Positions 3,005 to 64,000 of a DNA stretch of 64,000 nucleotides are shown here, piece by piece. The stretch is from Akanthomyces muscarius (taxonomy: Eukaryota > Ascomycota > Sordariomycetes > Hypocreales > Cordycipitaceae). The stretch lies in assembly GCF_028009165.1 (NCBI RefSeq), contig NW_026611618.1:1550001-1614000 (forward strand). The letters are read 5' to 3'. A program made the position numbers and the translations under genes. Positions within the stretch are counted from its first letter, which is position 1; every line of letters begins with the position of its first letter. The notes under the pieces were generated by a model, which saw only the letters and a program-made list of their open reading frames with translations, was not told the DNA's origin and ran no database searches.

Positions 3005-6000
3005 ATGATAAAACCTGTGCTGCCAGTAACCCTTGCGCTGACGCTTGGAGCTTGCTTTACCCACGCCGAAAATCTCAAGGCCAAAATTGGCTACTCCGAG
3101 GAGGAGCTTCTTGACGGACTTGTGCCAGTGCCAATCGGTTTGCCGAACAACGATCCCCAGGCACTGCCCCTGATTAATGGCTGCCCACGAGCCTGCGCGG
3201 CTGCTGGCTCAGATGCTGCCAACTGGACGCAGCTGTACAAGGTCAGCCATTTGGAGCCTTGCAACTCGACACTTCTCTTTGAGTTCAACGTCCAGAATGA
3301 TCCAAGCCCCTTTACCACCATACGTGCGTGTTATACTGGAAGTGAAGTGAAAGACGCTTCCCCTAAGACACAGCGGCGCAGCTACCAATCTTCTGGTCAT
3401 GTTGAGGAGGGTGCCACGTCGGCTGCGAAGCAGCCTCTTTGCGGTGCGGCGTCAAATGTAACGTCCGAGGTCAATGTCAGCGTTGGAATCGATTCGATTG
3501 CCAGCGAGATGCGTCCTGGTGCTGCTGAAGCGGTAGCGGTACTGGCATCGCACCTGTCTTACCATGCCCCTTGCGGAAGTACCATCATATTTGCCAAGTC
3601 CGGTGAGGCCATAGTTGGGCTCTATATCGGAGCTGACCTACAAAAGTCTGCTGCAGTGGAGCTGCTTCCCAAATTATGGTACGCAGAGCTCCAATCCCTT
3701 GTCTCAGTATCCTCGCTCTGCTAACTAAGCTACGCAGTAAGTTGATACCAGGCTGAGTTGCAATGTTTCCCGGCATCAAACAGAGCCGGATCCCTGAATG
3801 TACCCCTTTGTTTGCTTCATAAAGACTACTAACTTCGGTTATTTCAGCATCGCTTCTTGAGAATGGTAGCCAAAGCGTCGAGATCTGCGACTCTGACACA
3901 GCGCTTGATTCCACAATGGGACTGTTCGTCGCTCAGAGCTCCTCAGAACTTAGAAAACCGCACGAGGCACTCCGGATTTGGTCTGCTGGAAAGTGCTTGG
4001 AGAATCAAGGGCAGAGACAGCTCGAAAATCGAATACAGCTCCAGGTTCTGAGCTCATCAGCGCTATCCTCGTCCAGAACCAATAACGCAACGTCCAGTAA
4101 CTCGAAGTCGACTCTCAACAATCGTTCCGATTCCATAAAGGCCAGAGGTGAGTGCCGCACCATAACTGTGGCAGATGGCGACGGCTGCGGCTCTCTCGCA
4201 TCCAAATGCGGCATAAATGGCCATGATTTCGAGGGCTACAACTCGAAAAAGCCACAGTTCTGTTCCAGCCTTGTGAAGGGACAATTAGTCTGTTGCTCAG
4301 AAGGAACTCTACCAAGCAGGCGTCCCAGCCCTGGGTCTGATGGGGGCTGCTATGCGCACCAAGTTGGCACTGGTGAGACTTGCGCGGGCCTAGCGGCCTC
4401 ATTCGACATTACAGAAGACGAGCTTTTCAAGTGGAACAAGCACGTCTGGGGCTGGCAAGGATGTGGGAACAAACTTCAGAGGCTGCAGATCATCTGTCTC
4501 TCCGATGGCAACCCTCCAATGCCTGCCCAGCTTGACGGAGTGATGTGCGGACCCCAAAAACCTGGAACTGCCAAACCGAACGGGAAGTTCACAGGTGAGG
4601 ATCTGTCAAAACTTAATCCCTGCTCCCTCAACGCATGCTGTGACAGTTGGGGATTCTGTGGAACAACGGCAGAGTTTTGCACAGTGTCACCTGCCGACAC
4701 GGGCAGCCCAGGCACTCACCAGGATGGTACAAATAGTTGCATATCCAATTGCGGCATGGACATAGTTCAAAGTCCCAGTGCCCCAAAAAGCTTCTACTCC
4801 ATTGGCTATTTCGAAGGATACGGCTTAACTCGTGCTTGTGATCTTGTTGACATCCGCAGCATTGACGTCACCAGATATACTCATATCCATTTTGCATTTG
4901 CGACAATTAGTGCAGACACCTACGATGTTAACATGGGACCAACTATCAACCAGTTCTATTATTTCAAAAAAGTCACAGGTGTAAAAAAGGTTTTGTCCTT
5001 CGGCGGCTGGACGTTCTCGACAGAGTAAGTTCTTCCTTGATGTCGGGAAACGAAATGCACTCGCTCATAACTTACAATAGTCCTGCAACCTATGGTATCT
5101 TCCGCACCGGTGTAACCGGTGCACACCGGGCCACAATGGCCCAGAATATTGCCAAGTTCATCATAGATAATGATCTTGACGGTGTGGACATTGACTGGGA
5201 GTATCCCTCCGCCCCTGATCTTCCTGATATCCCCCCCGGCAGCCCTTCGGAGGGGATTGACTATCTCCGGTTTCTAATGACATTGAAATCACTGCTACCG
5301 GTTGATAAGACAGTTTCCTTCGCTGCACCAGCGTCCTTTTGGTATCTTAAAGGATTTCCAATCGACAGGATCACTAAAGTCGTCGATTATGTTGTCTATA
5401 TGACCTATGACTTACACGGACAGGTAAGTGCTTGTTCAAATCATAAAATAAACAGTTTTTAACGTATCATGCAGTGGGATTACAACAACAAATGGAGCAC
5501 GCCTGGTTGTCCAGCGGGAAACTGCCTGCGGTCGCATGTCAATATGACGGAGACAATCAATGCTCTTTCGATGATTACCAAGGCGGGGGCGCCCTCGGAT
5601 AAGATTGTCGTCGGTGTCACTAGCTACGGTCGCTCTTTCAAGATGACAACCTCTGGGTGTACCGGCGTCATGTGTACATACGAAGGGCCCAAGTCTCAGG
5701 CTGCGCAGGGCCAATGCACCCAAACCGCTGGCTACCTCGCGAAAGCAGAAATCGACGATATCATCGCAAACAATCCAAGTGCTCACACCAGTTATGACAG
5801 TGCGAGCCTCAGCGACGTTCTCGTGTACAACGATCGAGAGTGGGTTTCGTATATGAGTGACAGCAACAAGGAGAAGCGGAAGAGTCATTACAAAAGCTCG
5901 CATTTCTTGGGCATCAGTGACTGGGCAATTAGTCTGGATACCAGCCATCTCCTACCTATCAACCAGAGCATGCCGGCCACTTCCAATGACTGGCCCGATG

Positions 6001-7542
6001 GCCCTTCTCTTATATCCGGAGGCATTTTGGACTTGCGAGTCCACCAAACTTGTATTGATCGTAACCATCTTGACAAGATCAAGACGAGCTGGAAGGATGC
6101 CGCGGCTTTGTCAGATGCCACTATGCAATGGACTCGATGGAATAGATATCAAGACGCGATGGAAACCTACTTCGGAAAACAGACACACAGTAGCCCTTGG
6201 TTCGGACCAGACATTTGGTGGGGTAAGTCTATGAGCATAGCTTCTGAGATTCTACAGTAAAGCTGATAACACGCTAACCCTGAGCAGACAATTTCAAGAG
6301 ACAGAACAACCTGCACACACGTTATTGGTTTCAAGACGACTGGAAATACGTTTACATATATTGCGACGAAAACGACCTCCCGAGGAGAGCCAAGAAAGAC
6401 AGGACAAATATCTGCTTCGATGCTGACAGAGGCAAACCTGTCAGTGCATGGACCTTTAACGTGCCTAAGAACTCGTACTCCAGCGAGTTTTACATCCTTG
6501 TATGCCCGGCATTCTTAGGTGAAATTGCGTCGTCACCGTATACAGATCTCGAGGCTCTTGCGGAGGAATCGAAAAGTGATGATTTTGTCAAAAAGTATAT
6601 TGATAGGTGGATGAGCGTACGCGGGGTGACAATGTTTCATGAGATTATGCACTTCAAAGGCATAACAGTCCCTTGGTGCGGCGACGAAACCGAGATCTAC
6701 AATCCAGCGTCGCTGTATAGGCTCGCACGAAGGAATACCGATGAAAAGAACAGAAGACTCAACGTCAACGCACACACCTGGGTGAGTGACACACTACTAA
6801 CTACTGCAAGTTGAGGGTCGCGCCAAAAGAACTGTGACTAATGTTGCTTCTTCAAACAGGCAGTATCGGCCGTCGCAATATGGATGATGAGAAGGTGGAG
6901 CGACATCTTCACCCCTCTTCCATACGTGATTCAGCACCCCCCTTCGAAGCGTGACGATGGCGACGACTCTGATGATTTGAGCGGCATCAGTGTATTACCC
7001 GACGACCAAAGAAGAGATGAAGCCAGTAAGTAGAGCATGGCGCGAGGCATACCTCTCTTGAACACCTCGCAACGGATCTAATCGCTGACGAATTTTTTTC
7101 TTAATAAAAGCCGACTTTGATGCTTCCCAGATTGATCCGACCAAATTTCGTTGGCTCAGCCACTATGGCCTAACAAGTGGAATAACATCGCCGTGAGTCT
7201 ACCCAGGCACTGTATGCCAATACACGAGACCATGCTGTTTTTAACAGAGTGACACAAAGTGAATGTACGGAAGGTGACTACATGAACGAGGAGCAGTGCA
7301 AGTATTTTTGCCACGCGGGTGACGAAGGAGATTGCACCAAGAACGACGACAAGAAAGTATGGACATGCAGTGGCTGTGTTCATCCTACGCAGTGCAAAGC
7401 AGGCGACTACAAGACAACAAAAGAATGCAATGCCAATTGCTTCAAGGGCACATGTATCGACAACGAAACCCTTTGCCCGCCAGAGATAGGGGACCCTAGT
7501 TGTATGCCAACAGAAGTTGTACACTGCGACTGTCCAAGCTAA
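3005..7542 (+). CDS. Killer-toxin-like (subgroup C) GH18 chitinase with LysM and hevein-like domains, fused to a metallopeptidase-like domain
   Basis: About 1,330 residues. Proposed exons: 3005-~3706, ~3848-5024, 5081-5423, 5475-6222, 6288-6781, 6860-7025, 7111-7192, 7248-7542. Order of domains: signal peptide (1-21); N-terminal region of the killer-toxin-like chitinase family; two LysM modules (about 333-385 and 400-450); hevein-like chitin-binding domain (CCDSWGFCGTTAEFC); GH18 domain (about 545-860) with the catalytic signature DGVDIDWEYP and the barrel end HFLGISDWAISLD; then in the same frame a region like fungal aspzincin-type zinc peptidases, with WKDAAALSD, YFG, YILVCPAFL and the zinc motif HEIMH; finally a Cys-rich tail. 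It should hydrolyse chitin outside the cell or in the cell wall. The junction of exons 1 and 2 is unresolved: no canonical donor keeps frame with the good acceptor ending at 3847, and a perfect GTAAGT at 3737 lies just past a stop at 3722. A frameshift or unusual splice is therefore possible. Downstream introns all fit by phase. Confidence 0.8.
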
Positions 7543-8159
7543 AGTTCGCAAATTGAGCCACGTCTTCCGCTATGTCTCGAGTACTAGGTAGTGTTTGGTA
7601 GCCAATCTCATAGTTAATATGACACGAAATACTGCACTAAATATTCAGGCTTTTGACGCAGATTGTTTCTTTAGCGCATTTTATTAAAGGTATAATAGCT
7701 ATTATATATAAAGTTGTATTCTTATATACTTAGATATATTGGCTTAAAGCTATAAATAAGCTAATTAGTAAGTACTAGTAAGCTAAAAAGACTAGACTAT
7801 AAACTAAAGGATCTATTTCTATATAAGATATAAGAAACTTAAAAGAGTAAATAAATATAGACTATTAAGTAAAGAATAAAATATAGACTTATAGTTATTA
7901 TAGAGTAAGGGTTAAAATATATAGTTAGTAATATAGTATATATAGCTAGAGTAGATATAATATATAAACTTATACTATAAATATAGTATAATACTAAATA
8001 ATACACTTAATATATATATATTATAGTGTCCTTATATTATAATTATAAAAGCCTAATACCTTATAGTAGGTAATAAAATTTTAACCTTTTTTCCCCTAAT
8101 ATAATATATTTTTAAAATACTATAATTAATTAATTATAAAGCCCTATATTTATAAGTGT

Positions 8160-8510
8160 TATGGACTGGCCTCACGGCTGCTGCAGGTGAGCGTCACAAT
8201 AGTTATTAATTCTCTTAAAGAGAGAAGAAAGAAGAAGGAAGGGGGAGTGTCAGGGACCTCGAAGCTATATAGTGGATGCTAGGGATACTCGGCTACGATC
8301 TGGTATTGCTTGATCTTTTTGATCTCTGTGGCCGAGTGGTTTACCTAGCGCCCCGGTTCCTCACAGGGAGGCTCTCTCTCCCTCTCCCCTAATCTAGCTC
8401 GTAATCTACACTGTGGAGTAAGTACGATCTACGCCCAATGCGAGAGCTTAGTAAGCTCTCGCATTGAGCCCCTAGGGAGCGGGCAAAGCTCGAATCCTTC
8501 ACAATAAGTA
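8160..8510. repeat. Normal-composition island with tRNA-like box motifs and a long palindrome
   Basis: This 350-bp stretch inside the A+T-rich island has ordinary base composition. It contains TGGCCGAGTGG (8329-8339), which fits a Pol III A box as in tRNA-Ser/Leu, and GCTCGAATCCT (8488-8498), which resembles a B box. Between them is a near-perfect palindrome at 8437-8465 with 14-bp arms (AATGCGAGAGCTTA and its complement) around one base. The box spacing is about 150 bp and no cloverleaf closes, so this is not a tRNA gene. A tRNA-derived SINE relic or an LTR fragment is possible; neither is proven. Confidence 0.35.
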
Positions 8511-8849
8511 AGAATTACCCTTCTAAGTATTCTTCTTTAACCTATAATAACGACTTAATATTAAAGCCACCACTATAACTTATAAGATATAAAATCGACC
8601 TATATAAAGTAATTTAACTTAAAATAACTTAATTCTTAAAGATTATAATTAATTACTTAAAGACGCCCTTTATTATACTAATATTTAATATACTTCTCTT
8701 ATAAAAGTACTACCTTAATATTAGAGTATATAGAGTATTCTATAAGTAGGTATATAGCTTTTTTTTAGTATTTACATTCCTAGAATTATAATAGAAACTA
8801 GTAATAAAGAAGATTTTAATTAGTTTAAACGTTTTTTCTATTAGTTATA

Positions 8850-11485
8850 ACGTAGTTTATAAGCGAGTGGGCCACCTAAGCGAGTAGGCCACCTTCTAGG
8901 ACCTTATAATAAAAAATATACTTTAATAAACTAAAATAAAATCTAGTTAATAAAACTTAATTATAATTATCTAAAGAAGTGATTTCTATTACCTTTTTAT
9001 ATATCCTAGAATTATAGCTAATTTTACTATAATTACTATAGCGCTAATAGTGTAGCTTAGGCTATATTAATAGACCCGGACTTTTAGACTTATTATATCT
9101 TCTTTTACCCTTCCCTTATAACTAAGCAGCTAAATTTTTACTAGCCTCTAGAGTAAGAGATCTTTTAGTCTATAAGCGTTTTTTTTTTTATATATTGGCG
9201 CTAAGAAAGTTATATATTTACTACCTCTAGCTTATTAATTTATTCTTATATTAGTACTATCTATTATATTACTTTTATTATATACTTTAATAACTAAGAG
9301 ATATTTATAATAATTTTACTTAAAGAGCTACTCTAATAGATCCTTATCCTTTTTTTAATATATTCTATTTAAGATAGAGCCTTTATTAGGTTATTAGGGG
9401 TTTTTAGAAGTTAGGGAAGTTCTTAACTATTAGCGGTACTAGGAGGTAATAGAGTCTATAACTTTATATTAAGCTATAAAATAATATATTCTAGATTAAA
9501 AGGATAAATCTTAGCGCCTTAAAAACCGCTAAAGATATTTAATTTAGTTATAAAAGCTTTATATACTAAGTAAACTATAAGGAAAAATTCTTCCTTAGTA
9601 ATATAAGTAACCTTAATATATATTAAATTATTAATTATATTATTATATATATATTTTAATAGCTAAAAATAGATAATATCTAATAGTTAGAGTATATATA
9701 ATAAATAAGTAGGTATATATAATATAATTATATTATTTACCTTATAATATAGCTTAAAATCTATAAAGTAATAGCTTTTATACCTATTAAGGATTAATAG
9801 CTTATATTTACTAATTCTTTTAGTCTTTATATATAGATTAAAATACTTAAACTATTCTAAACACTTCTTATTTATAGTCTATCTATTTTTAGTAATAGAA
9901 ATAGCTTAGTTATAAAGTAAAGGGCTATTTTTATACTAAAAGGAGAGGTAGGTTTTACTTATAATAATAATAAATAAAGGAATAATAATACTAACTATAC
10001 TAATACACTCTATTATTATTACCTAAGTATAATTTCCTTATTATATTTTCTAACCTTTTTAATATCTTTCTATACTTATAATAACTATTTTAAATAATAT
10101 TTAGCCTATTATAAAGCCTATCTTATTAAAGTTATAAATCTCCCCCCTTTATATACTATATTTTATAATAGTATTTCTTATAAGTTAAAACTAGTCTTAA
10201 TATTATTTTAGATCTTTATATTAGACTCTTTAATAGTTAATTTAATATAATAAATATATAATAAGTTCTAGGTATTATCTAATAAAGTTTATAGACTAGT
10301 ATCTCCTAACTAGAATATCGTATTTAAGCTCTAGTAGGTAGTTAGTTATAGCTTCTATATTATATAGGTAAGGCAGCTAAGATTATATATCTAGATTAAG
10401 AATATACTAAATAAGGAGATCTTTTTTTTTATTTATTAATTTTTAAGAGTATATTATTATATTAGCTTAACTTAGTTATTCTTATTAATAATATATTAGT
10501 ATTATTTATAACGTGGTTGATAAGCGAGTGGCGTAGATAAGCGAGTGGCGCGTTTTGCCCCACTTATTCTCTAAAAGTAGAATAACTAGATAAATATAAG
10601 AGTAAATTAGCTATATTTATAAATAGAGCTTACTAAGCTATTAAATTACTTATATATAAAGATAAAGTATTTAATATAATTATCTAAATTTATAATAACT
10701 AATTTAATAGTTAGTAGATTTAATTCTTTTTTAAACTCTCTAAAGAATTAATAATTAATTTAGTTTATTAGCTAAGAGACTAAATTATAGTTTATAGTAT
10801 ATTTATAATACCTAATTAACTATAAAACTTCTAAAATAAATATAGTTAATCTTTTTAATAAGTTAAATAAAAAAGACTAAAAATTAGCTTTAAATTTTAA
10901 ATTTCTTTAATAACTTATTAAAACTTTTAATTATATTTTATTTTTAATTATATATAAGTAAAAAGTTATTAATAAAAGCCTATTATAATAAATTTAAAGT
11001 TTTAATTATTTTAAATTAAAGAATATAATTTTTAAAAAGAATTATAAAAAGAATTAAACTTAGTTATTATTAATTATTATATAAGTAGAACTTATTTTAT
11101 TTATAATTAATACTATTTTTCTATAAGGAGTCTAATACCTTATTATACTTTAGTAAAAAGATTAGCTATTTTAACCTTATCTTTATAGAGTTATTTTACT
11201 TTTAGAGAATAAGTGGGGCAAAACGCGCCGCTCGCTTGTCTGCGCCGCTCGCTTGTCTGCGCCGCTCGCTTATCAACCACGTTAGTATATTATAAATATA
11301 AGCCGCGCTCTAAAGTAATAGTATAAGGTCTTTTTTTAAAGCCTTAAGGGTGTTAATAATATCTTTTTTATTTAGAGTTAAAACTATTTTATCTTATTAA
11401 GTTAATAGAGTTTAAATACAGTTAATTAAAAAAAGACGCGAAGTGGCCTACTCGCTTAAGTGGCCCGCTTGCTTGTGAACTACGT
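8850..11485. mobile_element. Decayed DNA transposon with about 47-bp terminal inverted repeats (Tc1/mariner, Fot1/pogo-like size)
   Basis: The left end (8850-8895) begins ACGTAGTTTATAAGCGAGTG and the right end (11441-11485) is its imperfect inverted complement, beginning ACGTAGTTCACAAGCAAGCG when read from the right. Each end carries two copies of an AAGCGAG-type subterminal motif. Both ends abut TA, as expected for TA target-site duplication. Total length is 2.64 kb; subtracting the nested 0.77-kb element leaves about 1.86 kb, the usual size of fungal Fot1/pogo elements. The interior is too A+T-rich and broken to show a transposase. Family assignment rests on ends, TA flanks and size only. 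Confidence 0.65.
10511..11282. mobile_element. Nested TIR element with subterminal tandem repeats (MITE-like)
   Basis: The left end starts ACGTGGTTGATAAGCGAGTG (10511-10530). The inverted complement of the right end (to 11282) starts ACGTGGTTGATAAGCGAGCG. Similarity runs about 75 bp inward to a shared GCCCCACTTATTCTC. The right end has three copies of a 17-bp unit (gcgccgctcgcttgtct) and the left end has two. TA flanks both ends. At 772 bp it is too short for a transposase, so it is a non-autonomous or internally deleted element. It lies wholly inside the larger element. Left-arm differences from the right arm are C-to-T changes (for example GCGCAGACAAG against GCGTAGATAAG), consistent with RIP. 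Confidence 0.7.
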
Positions 11486-11702
11486 TATTTATATTTTAAT
11501 ATAAGTTTTTAAATATATTTTAAGCTATTAATAAACTACTATTATATAACTATACCTACTAAGTAGGTTTCTATAGAATATAATAAGTCACACTTATACT
11601 CTTGATAGAATGCCCTAGGGAATTCCTCTATAACTGTCCTCTGGCTATATTAGTTTCGCGCCTAATGGTATATGTCTGTCTCGATCGATACCTGTCCGGG
11701 GG

Positions 11703-12107
11703 TGTAACGATGGCTTATTTACTAAGTCACAGTAGGTCTGTTTCTTAGAGAGTAAGTCAGGCTGAAGGCTACAGGGTAGCACGGTCTTAAGCAGTAGGCG
11801 ATAAACGGTCGTTAAGAGTAGAACTCTCAATAGTGAAACTATTACTTAGATTGATCAATAGAGATCTAAACTATCTAGACTAGCTACGGTCCTTCCTTAT
11901 ATACTAGTTTACCTCTCTATTGTTTTCCTTGGATCACTGGCTCACCCGCTCCTGTGATCCCTTCATGGCTCACTGGCTCACTCGCTCCAGTGATCCAGTG
12001 AGGTCACGTGACCACAAGGCCCGATCGGGGAGCCTGCAGGCGCCATGAGGTCGTCCTCTTAGGCCGCTTCCCCGGTCGCCTTGCGTCACTTCCCATCGTT
12101 CGTAACA
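11703..12107. mobile_element. Probable solo LTR
   Basis: The 405-bp segment begins TGTAACGATGG and ends CCATCGTTCGTAACA, giving inverted TG...CA ends of the LTR kind (TGTAAC / GTAACA). The five bases on the two sides (ggggg and gcggg) match at four positions, which could be a worn target-site duplication. Inside, GGATCACTGG (11931-11940) and CCAGTGATCC (11987-11996) form inverted arms, and GGTCACGTGACC (12002-12013) is a perfect palindrome. No internal retrotransposon sequence is present. It could also be an unrelated repeat. Confidence 0.45.
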
Positions 12108-56958: not shown

Positions 56959-59900
56959 TTAGCTATTTCTTGTCAGCTGCTTCCAAAATCTTGATATCCC
57001 CCCTGGCTGGGCTAATGAGCCTGCTTTGCGCTTATTTTGGCTCTTTGTTTGCTGTGTAGGCGCTGCCATTGGCTGTGTTGGTATGCTTGAAGCCGAGTTA
57101 CTCGGGAAATATGACTCTCTTGAGGAAAGAGCCGAGCTCGACAAGCTAGACATGTCTTGCGGTGCAAGGAAGGAAGATGGATCCGACTTTGGTGAGAGTG
57201 TAGAGTCTTCTTTTGCAAATGAGACTGAATGATCAGGGTCAGGGAATTGTTGATCTTGCGATCCAAATGCAAGCCTGATCTGGCGGGCTACTTCAGGATC
57301 AGCATTGCGCCTTCTGTACCCCGCTTGTTTGAGTAGTTGTAGAACATCATCATCGGGAATAAATTCTTCCCAGGCTTTGCGTCCCGCTGGGAGAATATTG
57401 GGATCCGCGCCATGCTCAAGAAGCAGGACCACGATGGGAAGCGTGCGCTTCTTTGCGGCGTAATAGAGCGCCGTCCTTCTTCCAGAATTCATGCCATTTA
57501 CATCGTGGCCCAAGCTGAGGAAGAGATTTATCATAGGGATGTTGCCCGTGGTTACCGCCTGTTTTATCGTCACAGCTCGTCGTAACCCCGTGACGGCTCT
57601 GCAACAGCGTGACTTGCCAAAAGCCAAGTTACAGATGGCTTTATAGCTATGGCTCGATGGCCGAAGATCGAGCCATTCTTCTGGTGTAAGGCCACTCTCA
57701 TCAAGCAAGCCTCGAGGCTCTTGTATAGCAGCGCTGCCAAGCAGGACCCCGATAGTAGACAGATCTCGACTGTACACAGCTAGGTGAAAAACGGACCAGC
57801 CATGATTGTCCTGCTGAGAGGCATTCATTCGTACACGCTCGTCTTCCAGGAGACACTGGGCAACTTGAGAATGGCCCATGTAGGCTGCATGGTGAAGTGC
57901 AGTCCACCCGTGGCAGTTTGCCTTACGCGCGTCCGCACGTCGTGAAAGAAGCAGCTTCACAATGTTAGCATGCCCTCCATTGGCAGCACAATGCATCGCT
58001 GATGTGCCATACGAGCTCACAGCATCGACGTTGGCCCCTGCTTCCAGCAATAAGCGCACAACTCCCAGATGGCCCTCTTCCGCTGCCCAGTGTATGGCAG
58101 ACCAGCCATCCCGATCACGAGAATTTGGATTTGCGCCCATATCGAGGAGCAACTGTGCGATGAAGTGGTTGCCTGCAGCAGCAGCTTCATCTAAAGGCAT
58201 CATCATCGGCCCATTAAGTGTCCTCGACATCTTAGCACCGCGGTGCACAAGGAACCCAGCGATTTCTATATGACTCAGACCGGCTGCCCAAGCCAGCGCA
58301 GATTTTCCATCTGGGCTGACTGAGTTGGGATTCCCAGCGCCTAGGGATAAAAGTTTCTCAGTGGCCGCAGCCTGGCCAGCAACCACAGCCCAGAGGAACG
58401 GAGTAAACCCGTAGTTGTCAATGGGATCGGCATCAGCGCCGTTGTCGGTCAAAATTTGTATTCCATGAGTGTTGCCCGTCTGTGCAGCATAATGCAAAGC
58501 TGTTTGACCGTTGTCGTCGCCTAGATCCACGATGGATTTATCGCCGGCGTTGAGTAACAGATCTACAATAGCAGGATAACAGGACTGTTCCATGAAGGCG
58601 TAGTGGAATGTCGTCCTACCGCTTTTGTCTCTGCTGCTCAATTTTGCGCCGCCCTGGATCAAAGACTTGGCCAATTGCAACTCGCCGGTCTGCACGGCCT
58701 GGTGAAGGTTTGTCATTCCTGCCACGTTTTTATCCTCCAAGTCAAGTCTCGACACTGACGGACTGAGGCCTTCCGCTTCGAGATCCAAATTGACATTGGC
58801 TGCCTCAGCATCGTCGTCGTCGTCCTGGAAAACGAGATCTTCGTCGTCGTCTAGTACACTGTACATAGAACCACGGAACTTTACTAACCCAGGCCCAACC
58901 TCATCATCTAATGGGTGGTCGCTATCAAAACTCATATTGTTCTCGTCCTCATCGCTCGGCAGCTTTTGTAGTGTAAGCAAAGCGATTTCTTTTATATGGC
59001 CGGCAATGTGTGACTGCAGAGCTTCGCTCGCAAAGGCGAGACTCGGTTCGACTTTTTCTGGGGGCTGGAAATCGTCGTTAAAGGGGCATTGCAGCATCTT
59101 CTCTAGGACAGGTCTTCGTGCTGCGCTGCTGAGAATCCCGGCATGAGTTTCAGGCACGCCATGCTCTCTGATCGAATGCTCCTGGTGCTGGATTTCCTGG
59201 TTGAATATCATTGGAGCGTGAGAAGGGGCTCTACACTCCCATGCCTGCCCGTGAGCGTTTTGCATGTGGCTGACCCAAGCTTTTGACGTTTCAAATGTTG
59301 GTGGAGCAGTCGTCTCATGTTCTCCCTCCAAGCAGTGTGGAAAGACACAAATAAATGGCTCCAAGTCTCCGATGACGTGAGTCCTGATGCACATTAGGTC
59401 GGAGATAATACTATTCAGAAAGTAGTACTCAGCTTACTGCCACAACCTTGACCTTGAACCGGTCTTAAACTCAATAATAACGCCACAGTACGGGCATTCT
59501 GGTGACGGCGGTACTGGGGGGAACGATAGTTTGTTGTTCACTACAATAGATTTAGCCCGAGGGACCTCCGTTGCAGACTTCGCGTAGAAAGCGCCAACAG
59601 CAGTCTGTCGAGCCGTCGTCGCATTTGTCGCTGGCGCTGGCACAAAGCCGGCTGGTCCTGATGATTTATTGTCGCTCGCAGGCTTTTGGAACACGCCCGC
59701 AGCAAAATGCACAGTCTGACGAGGATCCTCCTTTATCTTGGGTAGTTGTGGACGAACAGCTTGGGTGAGTTGTGGATTCTGAATACTCATGTCAATGCGC
59801 CGTCGGTGGGATCGCTGGTAATACAGCCGTCGAAGTCGCAGCTCATTCGCTCTGACTAATGCTTTGCGAAGTGAATCAGGCGCCTGGGGAAACCGGAAGC

Positions 59901-60612
59901 GGATATAGCATTCTGTGTAAAGACGTAACTCAGCAATCGCGGTATTTGCCTCTTCATCGTCGATGTATCGTTCGATTTTGCGAGCCCGGTTGGCCTTTGC
60001 GGACCTTCGAACGGCATTGGAGAGGCGGAAGAGTCGTGCTATGGTGCCGTGGATTGTGATTGTGATTTTCGAAACATTTTCTTCAGTCTGATCCAGCTCA
60101 CTATCCGAGTCGCTTGAATCGTCGCCGGTTCTCCTCGTGACTTCTGAATCTTTGTTTTCTCCTATGCGCTGTTTCTTCCTTCTCCGGTTCGGACCCGGTG
60201 GTCGCTGTTCGTCGACTGGTTGCACTGTTGTGGTGAATCCTCGTCAGCTTGAAATTCTTGACCTACAGTCCATTCCAAAATCATGCGACGACAGGCACTT
60301 ACAAGAATCTAAAGTCTCACAGATGACGTCGAGGAGCTGATGTAAAATCTGGACGACTGTGGGACTGTATCGGAGTCTGTAGTCCAGCGAAACATTGAGC
60401 GGCCCATAGACGTCCATGTTATTTCCCCAGAGTGTGAAGCGTGCCAACTGGTCATCCAAAATCGTAGGATCCGGCACGATATCTGCAATGGCCATTTTCC
60501 TCTGAAAAAGGGAGCTGCACTGGGCTGCATGCTCTGCGATGGTCGGGCAGAGACCATCTTGAAGAAAGACATCTTCAGTAAAATCGTCCTCCATGGTATC
60601 CAGCCCACTCAT
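56959..60612 (-). CDS. Zinc-finger and ankyrin-repeat protein
   Basis: Three exons: 60303-60612, 59438-60224 and 56959-59383; about 1,173 residues. Exons 2 and 3 join across a 54-bp intron to give CPYCGVII...WQTHVIGDLEPFICVFPHC, the zinc-finger-like block that precedes ankyrin or other repeats in many fungal proteins. The N-terminal region (about 1-360) is largely helical and charged with an acidic DSSDSDSELD run. Residues about 590-1,050 form around a dozen ankyrin repeats (NGQTALHYAAQTGNTHGIQI, SGRTTFHYAFMEQSC). The tail is Ser/Pro-rich, ending RFWKQLTRNS. Ankyrin repeats mediate protein binding. No NACHT or NB-ARC domain is present. It lies beside a gasdermin/protease pair, and such receptor-like repeat proteins are frequent at fungal allorecognition loci, but a joint role is only a guess. 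Confidence 0.85.
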
Positions 60613-61757
60613 GGCGACGGAGAGGGGAGGGACTGCAGGCGACGTCCCTGTAGGTGCGCGGAATATTCACGAAGCTGATGTCCGTCGGTGCGCAAGGAGA
60701 GGGGAGAAGAGCAGCAGAAAATCTTGAAATCGTAGACAGCACAAGCGAATTGAGACGACGACGGAAGTTTGCAAAAGTTGTTGTAAGTGCCTCGGCTGGG
60801 GACAAGTTAGGCCTCGCCGAAACTGGCGAAGTGATGAATTGTGGTACGGGTGCTCGGGGAGGGCGATTCAGAGCCCGTCACTATACTGACTGCCACCCAC
60901 TACACTGACTATGGGCAGCTTCTGGCGACTGTACTGACCGCTAGCTGCTGTGCTAATTGCAGGCCGCTGGTGGCTCTGGTGCCGTGGTTGGCTAACGTAG
61001 TAAGTCAAGAAACGCCCCTGTGCACTGGTCCGTCGCCCTCATCGCACAAGATATGGTAAGATACTCCGTACGCGTGATCATTCCCTGCCCTCTCCATTGG
61101 TCCAGAACCTTTGCAGAACCTTTGCAACCTGAATGCATCCTTCCGTTTCAAAGCCTTGTGGCTTGTGGCGCTGAGGACTGGCGCGCCCACACTGGCTCCA
61201 AGATCCCAATAAATTCAAAGAGCCTGAAGTCGGGCGGGCCGGCCCTCCGCAGCCTATGTCGGGGCTGAACTTTGATAAAAGAACCCCCAGTCACTCGCTT
61301 GTATGGAATATGCACACTCCCATTCCACTAATTATGCACCATCCTTTATTTGAGCGGATTAGCTACAGTGCAAGCAATCCGCATCCCATACTGTACTGGT
61401 TGGCACAGTGTCTGGTATGCTGTAGCGTTACGGCAATCGAATATAAACCGCCAAGAAAGCCACATACCTCAAGGTCCTTTTTAGCGCTTCTGCTTGTGCA
61501 ATAACAAGTTAAAGTGTGACTACAAAGTTCTTGAGGAGGCTGCATTGCACGGATTAAAAGCAGTGCGTGTCAAGCAAAGAGGAGGGCGAGCTAGTGCGAC
61601 AGCCTATGTACAACGTGATTTCACTACACGCCGAACAACGGACCAGAGCGGTCTGGGAGCAAATAACTTGCCAAAGATTGTCCATCACACAAGTGTACAG
61701 CGTCCTTGACAAGGAATCAAGGCCCATGATCTTGATTTGAACCTTGTTGCGGCAGCC
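60613..61757. other. Divergent intergenic region between the ankyrin and gasdermin-like genes
   Basis: 1.1 kb holding the promoters of two divergent genes. Repeats of CACTGACT/CTGACT type occur at about 60883-60950. No further gene recognised. Confidence 0.5.
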
Positions 61758-62591
61758 ATGTCTTTCACAAAGACGTATTTTCTATGTCCCACGTCGGACT
61801 TCATCCACCCACCACCCGCAGGTCCCCTCTACCTCGGTTCTATTATTCGCTCCTCGTCAGCACCGCAATACCCTCTTAACAGGGCAAACGTCATCGCCGT
61901 ACCTGACGCAGCAGTCTTTCGCGTCGTCGAGACTAACTGGAAGAAGAACGTCTCCGCCGGCAAAGACTTTGGCCTGGGTGTCTATGCTCAGTTCCTGCAG
62001 CTGGCCACCGGTGCTGAAGTGGAAGCGGCGCATTCGAACCAAACCACAAACACGTTTGCTTTTGACACGCTGACGACTCTGGCTTTTGAGCCGACGCAGG
62101 AATATGTGCAAGAAGCCATCAGGGCAGCACCTGCTGTGCGGTCGTGGCTGAAGGAGCCTAGGCAGCGGTTCGCACCATTTTCCTCGCTCTACCTCGTCAC
62201 GGGCATGAAGCTCGTCAAGGGCGCGATGGTCAAGTACTCAGCTTCAAAGAGCACGACGGCCACGGGTAATCTTGGTTTCAATATGCCTACTTTGGGCGTG
62301 ACTGTCGGCCCAAAAGGCCATTGGAGCTGCGCGGCTAGCGACGAGACCGAGTTTAACCGTGAGTCGGAGTTTGTGTTTGCGTTTCGTTTGAAAAGGCTCA
62401 AGTTCGGGCGCAATGTCAAGATGGAAGAGTATAACAAGGGTGCCTTTCTGGCTGTAAGTGATGCAGAGGAAGAAGGCAACGACGCATCTATTTCTGTTTT
62501 AGTGGAGGATGTGGATGGCTCTGATATCAACACTGCGAAAGCTGTTTCTGATGCAACGGAACAGAGTATGGTTTATTGCGTCTCGACCTGA
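61758..62591 (+). CDS. Gasdermin-like pore-forming protein (RCD-1/HET-Q1 family candidate)
   Basis: A 277-residue single frame from the ATG at 61758. The N-terminus has CPTSDFIHPPPAGPLYLGSI, which resembles the start of fungal gasdermins (proline-rich turn then G-x-L-x-LGSII). Alternating beta-strand patterns, basic KxK segments (FRLKRLKFGRNVKM) and total length fit the RCD-1/HET-Q1 group. In Podospora, HET-Q1 is released from autoinhibition when the subtilase HET-Q2 removes a short C-terminal tail, after which it perforates membranes and kills the cell. Here the tail after KGAFLAV (Phe about residue 230) is acidic and low in structure, as expected of a removable segment. The next gene, 85 bp away on the other strand, is a subtilase. 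A canonical GTAAGT/TTTTAG pair in the tail could be an alternative intron. Assignment rests on sequence pattern and context. Confidence 0.68.
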   Translation: MSFTKTYFLCPTSDFIHPPPAGPLYLGSIIRSSSAPQYPLNRANVIAVPDAAVFRVVETNWKKNVSAGKDFGLGVYAQFLQLATGAEVEAAHSNQTTNTFAFDTLTTLAFEPTQEYVQEAIRAAPAVRSWLKEPRQRFAPFSSLYLVTGMKLVKGAMVKYSASKSTTATGNLGFNMPTLGVTVGPKGHWSCAASDETEFNRESEFVFAFRLKRLKFGRNVKMEEYNKGAFLAVSDAEEEGNDASISVLVEDVDGSDINTAKAVSDATEQSMVYCVST

Positions 62592-62676
62592 TTGTGGTAT
62601 GAATCAAATCGTGAGATGAAAGATGCTAGTATGCTACATGTAATAGAAAATTTGACTAGAATCAGTTACTCAGCGT

Positions 62677-64000
62677 CTAGTCATACATATGCCGTCTGAG
62701 GTCCTTGATCTTGTCATAAACCTTCTCTCTCGACGCTCCCTTATCGAAAAGCTCACTCGGCCTGATGTAGTTGTACCCAGCACCCCTCGTCTGACTGGCC
62801 ATGCTCTTCAACACCATATCCATAGAATGAACATCCTTCAGCCACGGCCCTAATAAGTCGCTTCCCACCCTGGCATGCTGGTCCTGCTGCCTCACAAACG
62901 ACAGGACCGAAGCGGCAAGCCCCGCGGCAATGGGTGTTGCGACTGATGTCCCTGACATGGCATTAACAGGTTCACTAAGGCCATTTGCAAGGCCAACGGG
63001 CCAGTAGGAGGAGACATTCTCCCCGAGAAGACTAAAGTTGACGTCTTTGTCGTCTGCAGTCGGATTGAACGCAGACGGGTTGCCGTTTCCATCGGTCGAG
63101 TGTATACAAAAGATACTAGGATATTTAGCGGGAAACGCTCTTCCGAGATTTGCTCCATCGTTTGATGCCGCTGCGAATAACAATGTCTGACTATGTAGGG
63201 CATTCGATATGGCTCTCTTCATAGGCTGATTATATTCACGAATCCCGAACGACATTGATATAATGTCCACCTTCCATTCAGAAACCGCGTGGTTAATTGC
63301 CTTTACACACGATGAGCTTAGTCTGCGGGGAAAATAGGGCTTCTGCTCTACCGGCCAGACTTACCTTCGCAATGTCATCGTACGTGTTTCGATTCAGAGT
63401 CGCTCGATGCGCAATTTTCCCGATATAAATCTCAGCGCACGGGGCAACTGTCAGTAACAGACCAAGGGCATGAGTGCCGTGCCCAATCTCGTCTCGAATG
63501 TCCTGTGGTTCTGTGTCATGTACAAAACTCTGTGCAGCCTTGATTCGTGGGTCTATTCGTCCGAGGTCATCCCTCAAGAGCGGGTTTTCAGCGTCAAAAC
63601 CGGAATCCAAGATGGCTATTCGCACAGATTCGACCGTTTGGAGCGCACCAGCTTGGACAGGCTCAAAAGGGTCAACGAATTGGTTAATTGAGGAGAGTAG
63701 GTTGTCCATCCATTTTCGCGATAGTGGATTCCTGGCGAATGGCCATTAGTATAACGCTGCTTTGTAAATCTTGAAACAATTCCTTACTCTTGTTCACAAC
63801 CTGTCTGATGGCTTGCGTCGAAAAAGTACAAGCTATTCGTTGAATCCTCAGTGACTTGCGCACGAGCAGGCTGTGCAGATTTCTGCACCACCATGTCGGA
63901 ATTGAAGCTTGGAAGCACATTTTCGGACATCGAACGTTGTGCAGGTGAACGCCCAACATCATTTGTATTAGTGGAAAAGTCATTCTTGCCAGTTTCAAGG
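62677..64000 (-). CDS. Subtilisin-like serine protease (S8), 5' end outside window; HET-Q2-like by context
   Basis: Three exons visible: 63788->64000, 63365-63731 and 62677-63300, with 56- and 64-bp introns, phases consistent. At least about 400 residues; the gene continues past the right edge. The catalytic triad is complete: Asp in VRIAILDSGFD, His in GHGTHALGLLL, Ser in GTSVATPIAAGLAA, and the oxyanion Asn in FAAASNDG. No signal peptide can be judged because the start is missing. The visible N-terminal part (NSLYFFDASHQTG, PLSRKWMDNLLSSI) is a linker-like region before the catalytic domain, as in intracellular fungal subtilases with extra N-terminal domains. It is convergent with the gasdermin-like gene, 85 bp apart, so cleavage of that protein is the obvious candidate function. 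The substrate is inferred. Confidence 0.88.

Follow-up and report, generated by a model that had tools for sequence, protein, structure and literature searches.

Most gasdermin genes of fungi are found beside a protease gene: about 80% reportedly adjoin protease genes, whose products are regarded as their activators (PMC10197012, PMC12881547, PMC10989679). The stimuli and regulators of these activating proteases are described in reviews as a major open question (PMC12881547). Here we report on a window of 64,000 nucleotides (C11:1550001-1614000) from the 36.19 Mb genome (12 contigs) of Akanthomyces muscarius (Sordariomycetes, Hypocreales, Cordycipitaceae), a biocontrol fungus described as insect-pathogenic (PMC11354060). 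At its right edge a gasdermin gene lies between a gene encoding a serine protease with a DUF7580 and an S8 domain (DUF7580-S8 protease) and a third gene, whose product combines a zinc-finger-like N-terminal region with ankyrin repeats (Table 1). These three genes, not two, are a conserved unit, and it is fairly likely that they work as a regulated-cell-death cassette. An earlier reading of the same DNA (the original prediction) had named the gasdermin and the protease as the unit. The linked pair stands, but the description was incomplete, since it had missed both the third gene, which lay outside its coordinates, and the protease's DUF7580 half. By itself the gasdermin-protease pair is an ordinary member of the known fungal kind; the third gene, the DUF7580 half and a history that cuts across fungal classes constitute the departure from known pairs.

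The 277-residue product of the gasdermin gene contains the PPPAGPLYLGSII stretch, and its gasdermin-like nature, proposed in the original prediction, was borne out by sequence and fold. It matched RCD-1-2 (8jyz_B, E 5.2e-10) and RCD-1-1 (E 9.3e-6) in the PDB (phmmer). A structural comparison with RCD-1, named beforehand as a possible refutation, gave an RCD-1-like fold for the AlphaFold2 (AF2) model (Foldseek, VIA-align), placing the protein among the gasdermins; the bacterial gasdermin structures 7n52, 7n51 and 7n50 were also matched by the model (Foldseek). We found 316 homologues at E<=1e-3, and identity to the best 120 of these 316 was 61-85%, indicating strong conservation. No family was obtained in a Pfam search, because PF26164, probably the newer model for this gasdermin family, is absent from the Pfam copy used, and not for lack of homology. 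PF26164 is precomputed by other sources for some of the homologues, and two of these likewise scored nothing in our copy. The assignment goes beyond chance because the RCD-1 sequence match, the fold, the 316 homologues and the contigs shared with protease homologues agree. Among the matches listed for the gasdermin and for the protease no row was near 100% identity, although A. muscarius does have an annotation for the third gene. Divergence of this strain's gasdermin from the A. muscarius reference was considered and dropped, as it is indistinguishable from missing annotation.

An S8 protease on the opposite strand, with its stop 85 bp from the gasdermin stop and an intact catalytic triad, had been predicted, too, and was found as described. 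Completed past the right edge with the adjoining genomic stretch, the gene comprises five exons without internal stop and four GT-AG introns (88, 60, 56 and 64 bp), giving a spliced product of 924 aa; this is a predicted gene model with splice sites picked by eye. In the product the triad consists of Asp637, His679 and Ser836, and Asn764 occupies the oxyanion position; Pfam recognised both a Peptidase_S8 (E 4e-24) and a DUF7580 domain (E 6.8e-30). A secreted protease without conserved linkage would have spoken against the pair. The N-terminus showed no strongly hydrophobic stretch and thus no obvious secretion signal in a crude, simple hydropathy check, some homologues are annotated as "intracellular serine protease" in their source records, and the linkage is kept in relatives. 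A literature search for DUF7580 returned 0 papers.

The third gene flanks the gasdermin on the side away from the protease, 1145 bp off and divergent, and the region between the two is a possible, putative shared promoter region judging from the coordinates. The ankyrin repeats of its product were recognised by Pfam, and external sources assign the zinc-finger-like region of some homologues to PF26082. Comparison with A. muscarius LMH87_008997 showed 822 of 823 ungapped positions to be identical, the sole mismatch falling at an intron boundary that is drawn differently in the two gene models; this match identifies the host as A. muscarius. The third gene probably belongs to the same death switch, because it neighbours the gasdermin-protease pair in very different fungi. 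In the literature searched on fungal gasdermins, supplements aside, we found no description of such a zinc-finger/ankyrin gene.

Linkage in other fungi was judged by two proxies, contigs of identical size occurring in different homologue lists and serial locus tags. For each of the three proteins the counts rest on the top 120 matches (totals: gasdermin 316, protease 139, ankyrin 207), with homologue clusters represented by their longest contig only. Shared contigs numbered 23 for gasdermin and protease, 27 for gasdermin and ankyrin, 36 for protease and ankyrin and 8 for all three; no contig size was repeated within any one list. At least two of the three genes were present on 70 different contigs. 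The contig-sharing cases fall into what we take to be Sordariomycetes, Eurotiomycetes, Dothideomycetes and Leotiomycetes. A partner was found for 42 of the 120 gasdermin rows, and for 41 of 79 when only contigs of at least 20 kb are counted.

Where serial locus tags were available for both genes, the two lie near each other (FVEG and most tags in the style of the Joint Genome Institute were excluded as not serial). Three consecutive tags with the gasdermin in the centre were found in Ophiocordyceps australis (CDD82_3356/3357/3358), Aspergillus alliaceus (ETB97_000459/458/457) and Pestalotiopsis fici (PFICI_10860/10859/10858). For gasdermin and protease the tag distance was 1 in Pyrenula, A. 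melleus and Penicillium cataractarum and 2 in Capronia. Those of gasdermin and ankyrin gene differed by 1 in Trichoderma semiorbis, T. cornu-damae, T. aggressivum and A. lentulus, by 2 in Monosporascus and by 4 in two Fusarium. Furthermore, eight genomes (N7511, UA08, MW887, VF21, TrVFT333, LB507, FOVSG1, ABKA04) showed ankyrin and protease tags exactly 2 apart, leaving space for one gene.

The trio is also repeated within the A. muscarius genome. A genome search detected four gasdermins, and a profile scan of selected stretches added a fifth on C5 (E 2.9e-8), whose identity rests on this profile match because a reverse genome search with it matched only itself. An S8 protease gene lies within about 2 kb of four of the five, being of the DUF7580-S8 type on C11, C6 and C5 and of the S8-NACHT type (plus WD40) on C10. 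The C10 gasdermin (L007:4396-9998) is divergent from this gene, which unites sensor and protease in one protein. On C11, C6 and C5 a zinc-finger-like gene adjoins the gasdermin, which is central at all three loci. The C6 gene matched the C11 gene with 22% identity over 540 aa (pairwise BLASTP, E 3.9e-18). The C5 gene scored E 1.2e-12 against a profile built without it (single-sequence target), and one of its exons alone E 1e-7 among the frames of the scanned stretches. Thus, the trio occurs in diverged form at two further loci, with another orientation: on C11 the third gene is divergent from the gasdermin and the protease convergent, while on C6 and C5 the protease is divergent and the third gene lies downstream. 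In the C6 third gene IVGIDFGTTHSG stands in place of the ankyrin repeats (L008:7496-8290). It presumably resembles the start of an Hsp70/actin-type ATPase; Pfam did not confirm an ATPase domain.

A zinc-finger neighbour was present at five of six DUF7580 loci, the sixth (C2:5278 kb) having none in C2:5265001-5291000. Six zinc-finger loci were detected, one of which (C4:692 kb) had neither DUF7580 nor S8 nor a gasdermin within 10 kb. At C11:405-410 kb (L009:4744-8933) a DUF7580 gene lies beside a zinc-finger/ankyrin gene, with no S8 seen and no gasdermin in the stretch scanned, suggesting that the DUF7580/zinc-finger partnership may exist without gasdermin. Because the stretches that revealed the C5 gasdermin and the zinc-finger loci on C5 and C7 had been chosen for DUF7580, these in-genome counts are biased toward association. 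One single-sequence genome search gave no paralogue at E<=1e-3; such searches are insensitive, and further zinc-finger paralogues may lie elsewhere.

Alternatively, gasdermin and protease alone might form the module, and the ankyrin gene might be an unrelated gene nearby that came with them by descent or on a transferred segment. The unit described in the literature consists mostly of two genes, according to PMC10197012, and at the C10 gasdermin with its NACHT/WD40-fused protease no zinc-finger-like gene was seen in the 15 kb examined. However, the trio recurs at three loci with only about 22-26% identity between their zinc-finger regions, and the linkage spans several fungal classes. We therefore regard the two-gene explanation as rather unlikely.

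Several further results weigh against a three-gene death cassette. For 78 of the 120 listed gasdermin rows there was no contig in common with the other two lists, which, with lists limited to 120 rows and one contig per cluster, is neither absence nor support. On one Fusarium contig the tags LZL87_007135 and 007205 are 70 apart, and the gaps are three in N0V90 and four in LTR86. The gasdermin at C7:338 kb had no S8 or CHAT match in 30 kb (C7:323801-353800). Conversely, the DUF7580-S8 gene beside a zinc-finger/ankyrin gene at C7:384-389 kb (L012:4072-9999, C7:383-389 kb) had no gasdermin in C7:379001-397000; the nearest known one, about 45 kb away, is itself without protease. The structural models are of moderate confidence, with a mean predicted local distance difference test score (pLDDT) of 65.1 for the gasdermin and 63.6 for a protease orthologue, and template modelling (TM) scores of the gasdermin model to RCD-1 were only 0.38-0.65 (shorter chain, well-ranked rows). 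A 7-sequence DUF7580 profile matched 0 PDB sequences at E<=10, and fold searches with the protease gave lists filled by subtilisins (the S8 part), so that a kinase-like reading of DUF7580, suggested by eye from the sequence, was unconfirmed. The three genes diverge jointly (Mantel r 0.75, 0.76 and 0.93), but such correlations are also expected from shared species history. A CHAT protease as partner of the lone C7 gasdermin was ruled out, since none was found on C7.

How the cassette could work is suggested by the gasdermin itself. Its predicted pore-forming N-terminal part is basic (isoelectric point, pI, 9.41), its C-terminal tail of 47 residues (4.84 kDa) acidic (pI 4.05), and between them lies a predicted flexible linker, an arrangement that would fit a short inhibitory tail as in other fungal gasdermins. 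In 49 orthologues the YNKGAF motif of this linker is conserved to 98% (Y225), 86% (N226), 96% (K227), 100% (G228), 98% (A229) and 98% (F230). HET-Q1 is reportedly cleaved after F238, with a loss of about 5 kDa (PMC10989679), and by analogy F230 is a candidate P1 residue. The gasdermin, presumably held inactive by its short acidic tail, is very probably activated by the linked protease: the presumably intracellular DUF7580-S8 protease would cut the linker, probably at YNKGAF, and free the basic pore-forming part, which would assemble into pores in the plasma membrane and kill the cell. The third protein would act upstream as sensor or regulator; the chances that it is indeed a working part controlling the protease are about even. 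The data show sequence and fold membership, open gene models, linkage by the two proxies and the repeated trio; that the protease cuts the gasdermin is predicted from the linkage and the linker motif, and that pores form, cells die and the third protein takes part are likewise predictions.

It might also be that the pore serves a role other than death, e.g. in secretion or development, with the protease as regulator. The strong conservation of the gasdermin is unusual for an immune gene, and cell death is a prediction from sequence in this case; against this, death is what known fungal gasdermins execute, as reviewed in PMC12881547, and a non-death role seems scarcely likely. The original prediction proposed an allorecognition or immune-type death switch. 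Allorecognition here would mean heterokaryon incompatibility like that of het-Q or rcd-1, in which polymorphic alleles kill fused cells. This is the role of both experimentally studied fungal gasdermins, but most fungal gasdermins reportedly play no part in it (both PMC12881547). We doubt it for the present locus because the strong conservation of the gasdermin, the most conserved of the three proteins (median identity in the shared-contig sets 0.77 and 0.76 vs 0.69 and 0.68), is unlike that of a fast-diversifying het gene. Moreover, gasdermin and protease reside in one genome and there is no idiomorph. The claim of allorecognition is thus unsupported and highly improbable.

The gene trees and identities cut across fungal classes, which suggests horizontal movement of the cassette between them. 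In the gasdermin tree (47 rows) the window gasdermin grouped with Beauveria, Conoideocrella, Cordyceps javanica and Talaromyces pinophilus with 99 in the Shimodaira-Hasegawa-like approximate likelihood-ratio test (SH-aLRT); class labels need 13 changes on this tree vs a minimum of 4, and 30 of its 44 inner branches are unresolved. In the protease tree (38 rows) the window protease paired with a record named Penicillium occitanis (Eurotiales), which we take to be a Talaromyces, with an SH-aLRT of 100. A single Eurotiomycetes clade was rejected by the approximately unbiased (AU) test (p-AU 0.00016, quick tree). Identity to this record across classes is 89%, compared with 58% between the record and T. 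atroroseus. For the gasdermin the values are 91% between Metarhizium and Pyrenula or Exophiala and 76% between two Trichoderma species. The Beauveria protease showed 55% identity in this comparison; it may be part of a different cassette in Beauveria. Horizontal transfer fits best, and ancient duplication with lineages evolving at unequal rates is a possible, less favoured alternative. Contamination of the Talaromyces records is unlikely, as two different records are concerned, one per gene. More tentatively, and with less than even confidence, we consider a death system of three components that is ancient and spreads horizontally among filamentous fungi, leading from an exchangeable sensor via the DUF7580-S8 protease to the gasdermin. 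The zinc-finger-like N-terminal region of the sensor would be common and its C-terminal part variable (ankyrin on C11, other in the paralogues), and the separate sensor would replace the NACHT-repeat parts of fused protease-NLRs (NLR, NOD-like receptor) such as the C10 protease.

Table 1. Features of the cassette at the right edge of the window (window numbering)
Feature	Position	Strand	Remarks
Third gene, zinc-finger-like N-terminal region + ankyrin repeats	56959..60612	-	1182 aa; exons 60612-60303, 60224-59438, 59410-56959
Intergenic region, third gene/gasdermin	60613..61757		1145 bp, divergent; from coordinates
Gasdermin gene	61758..62591	+	single exon, 277 aa; coordinates including stop
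Predicted flexible linker, gasdermin residues 221-243	62418..62486	+	pLDDT <50 (AF2 model); between pore-forming part and short acidic tail
YNKGAF motif, gasdermin residues 225-230	62430..62447	+	conservation in orthologues
Convergent spacer, gasdermin stop/protease stop	62592..62676		85 bp; from coordinates
DUF7580-S8 protease gene, in-window part	62677..64000	-	exon 5 62677-63300, exon 4 63365-63731, exon 3 from 63788 to window edge
DUF7580-S8 protease gene beyond window	exon 3 to 64888, exon 2 64949-65382, exon 1 65471-65719	-

Near the cassette, about 3.9 kb past the start of the protease gene, lies a PNP_UDP-NACHT-ankyrin gene of NLR type (C11, L005:7206-10000); such genes are reported among the het candidates of other fungi (PMC11138114). 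At the other end of the window an AT-rich block (7000-12000; GC 0.26 in 8001-12000 vs about 0.5 to 0.65 across most of the window) is possibly affected by repeat-induced point mutation (RIP). Read from the translation alone, the products of 1072-2091 and 3916-5028 resemble a secreted LysM protein with three repeats and a chitinase of the LysM/chitin-binding type.

Among the closest described arrangements is the two-gene gasdermin-protease cluster Q2-L, reportedly characterised by Clave et al. 2022 and known to us via reviews. As in these clusters, less than 10 kb separate the gasdermin from a multidomain S8 protease at the present locus, the stops being 85 bp apart. Unlike them, it has a conserved zinc-finger/ankyrin gene, and the presumed sensor half of the protease is DUF7580 instead of an NLR or repeats. 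Clusters with two or three genes, as well as kinase-like fusions, are spoken of generally in reviews (PMC12881547), and an overlap of the present trio with unpublished or other lists is possible. HET-Q1 of Podospora anserina is a gasdermin of near-equal length (278 aa, PMC10989679) that goes with an S8 protease, HET-Q2, and the conserved linker F and the tail of about 5 kDa found here correspond to the cut reported for it. However, het-Q1 and het-Q2 are described as idiomorphs, i.e. different genes at one locus in different strains, that function in allorecognition (PMC12881547), and not as neighbours, as the original prediction had wrongly stated; here both genes stand side by side in one genome. 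HET-Q2 comprises 388 aa compared with 924 aa for the DUF7580-bearing protease, which is moreover accompanied by the third gene. RCD-1 of Neurospora crassa is the closest solved sequence and fold, but it is reported to be activated without cleavage when two allelic forms meet (PMC12881547), whereas a dedicated protease is linked here. Among the Aspergillus fumigatus het genes are a CHAT protease and a NACHT-ankyrin gene, according to PMC11138114; they are not the same trio. Found with gasdermin and DUF7580 protease in distantly related fungi and again at paralogous loci, the third gene is a concrete candidate for a regulator of the protease. In bacterial gasdermin operons, too, a protease gene adjoins the gasdermin, and the fold matches theirs. 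Should the cassette pass from one fungal class to another, it would exemplify a self-contained death module that is shared horizontally, like the defence modules of bacteria.
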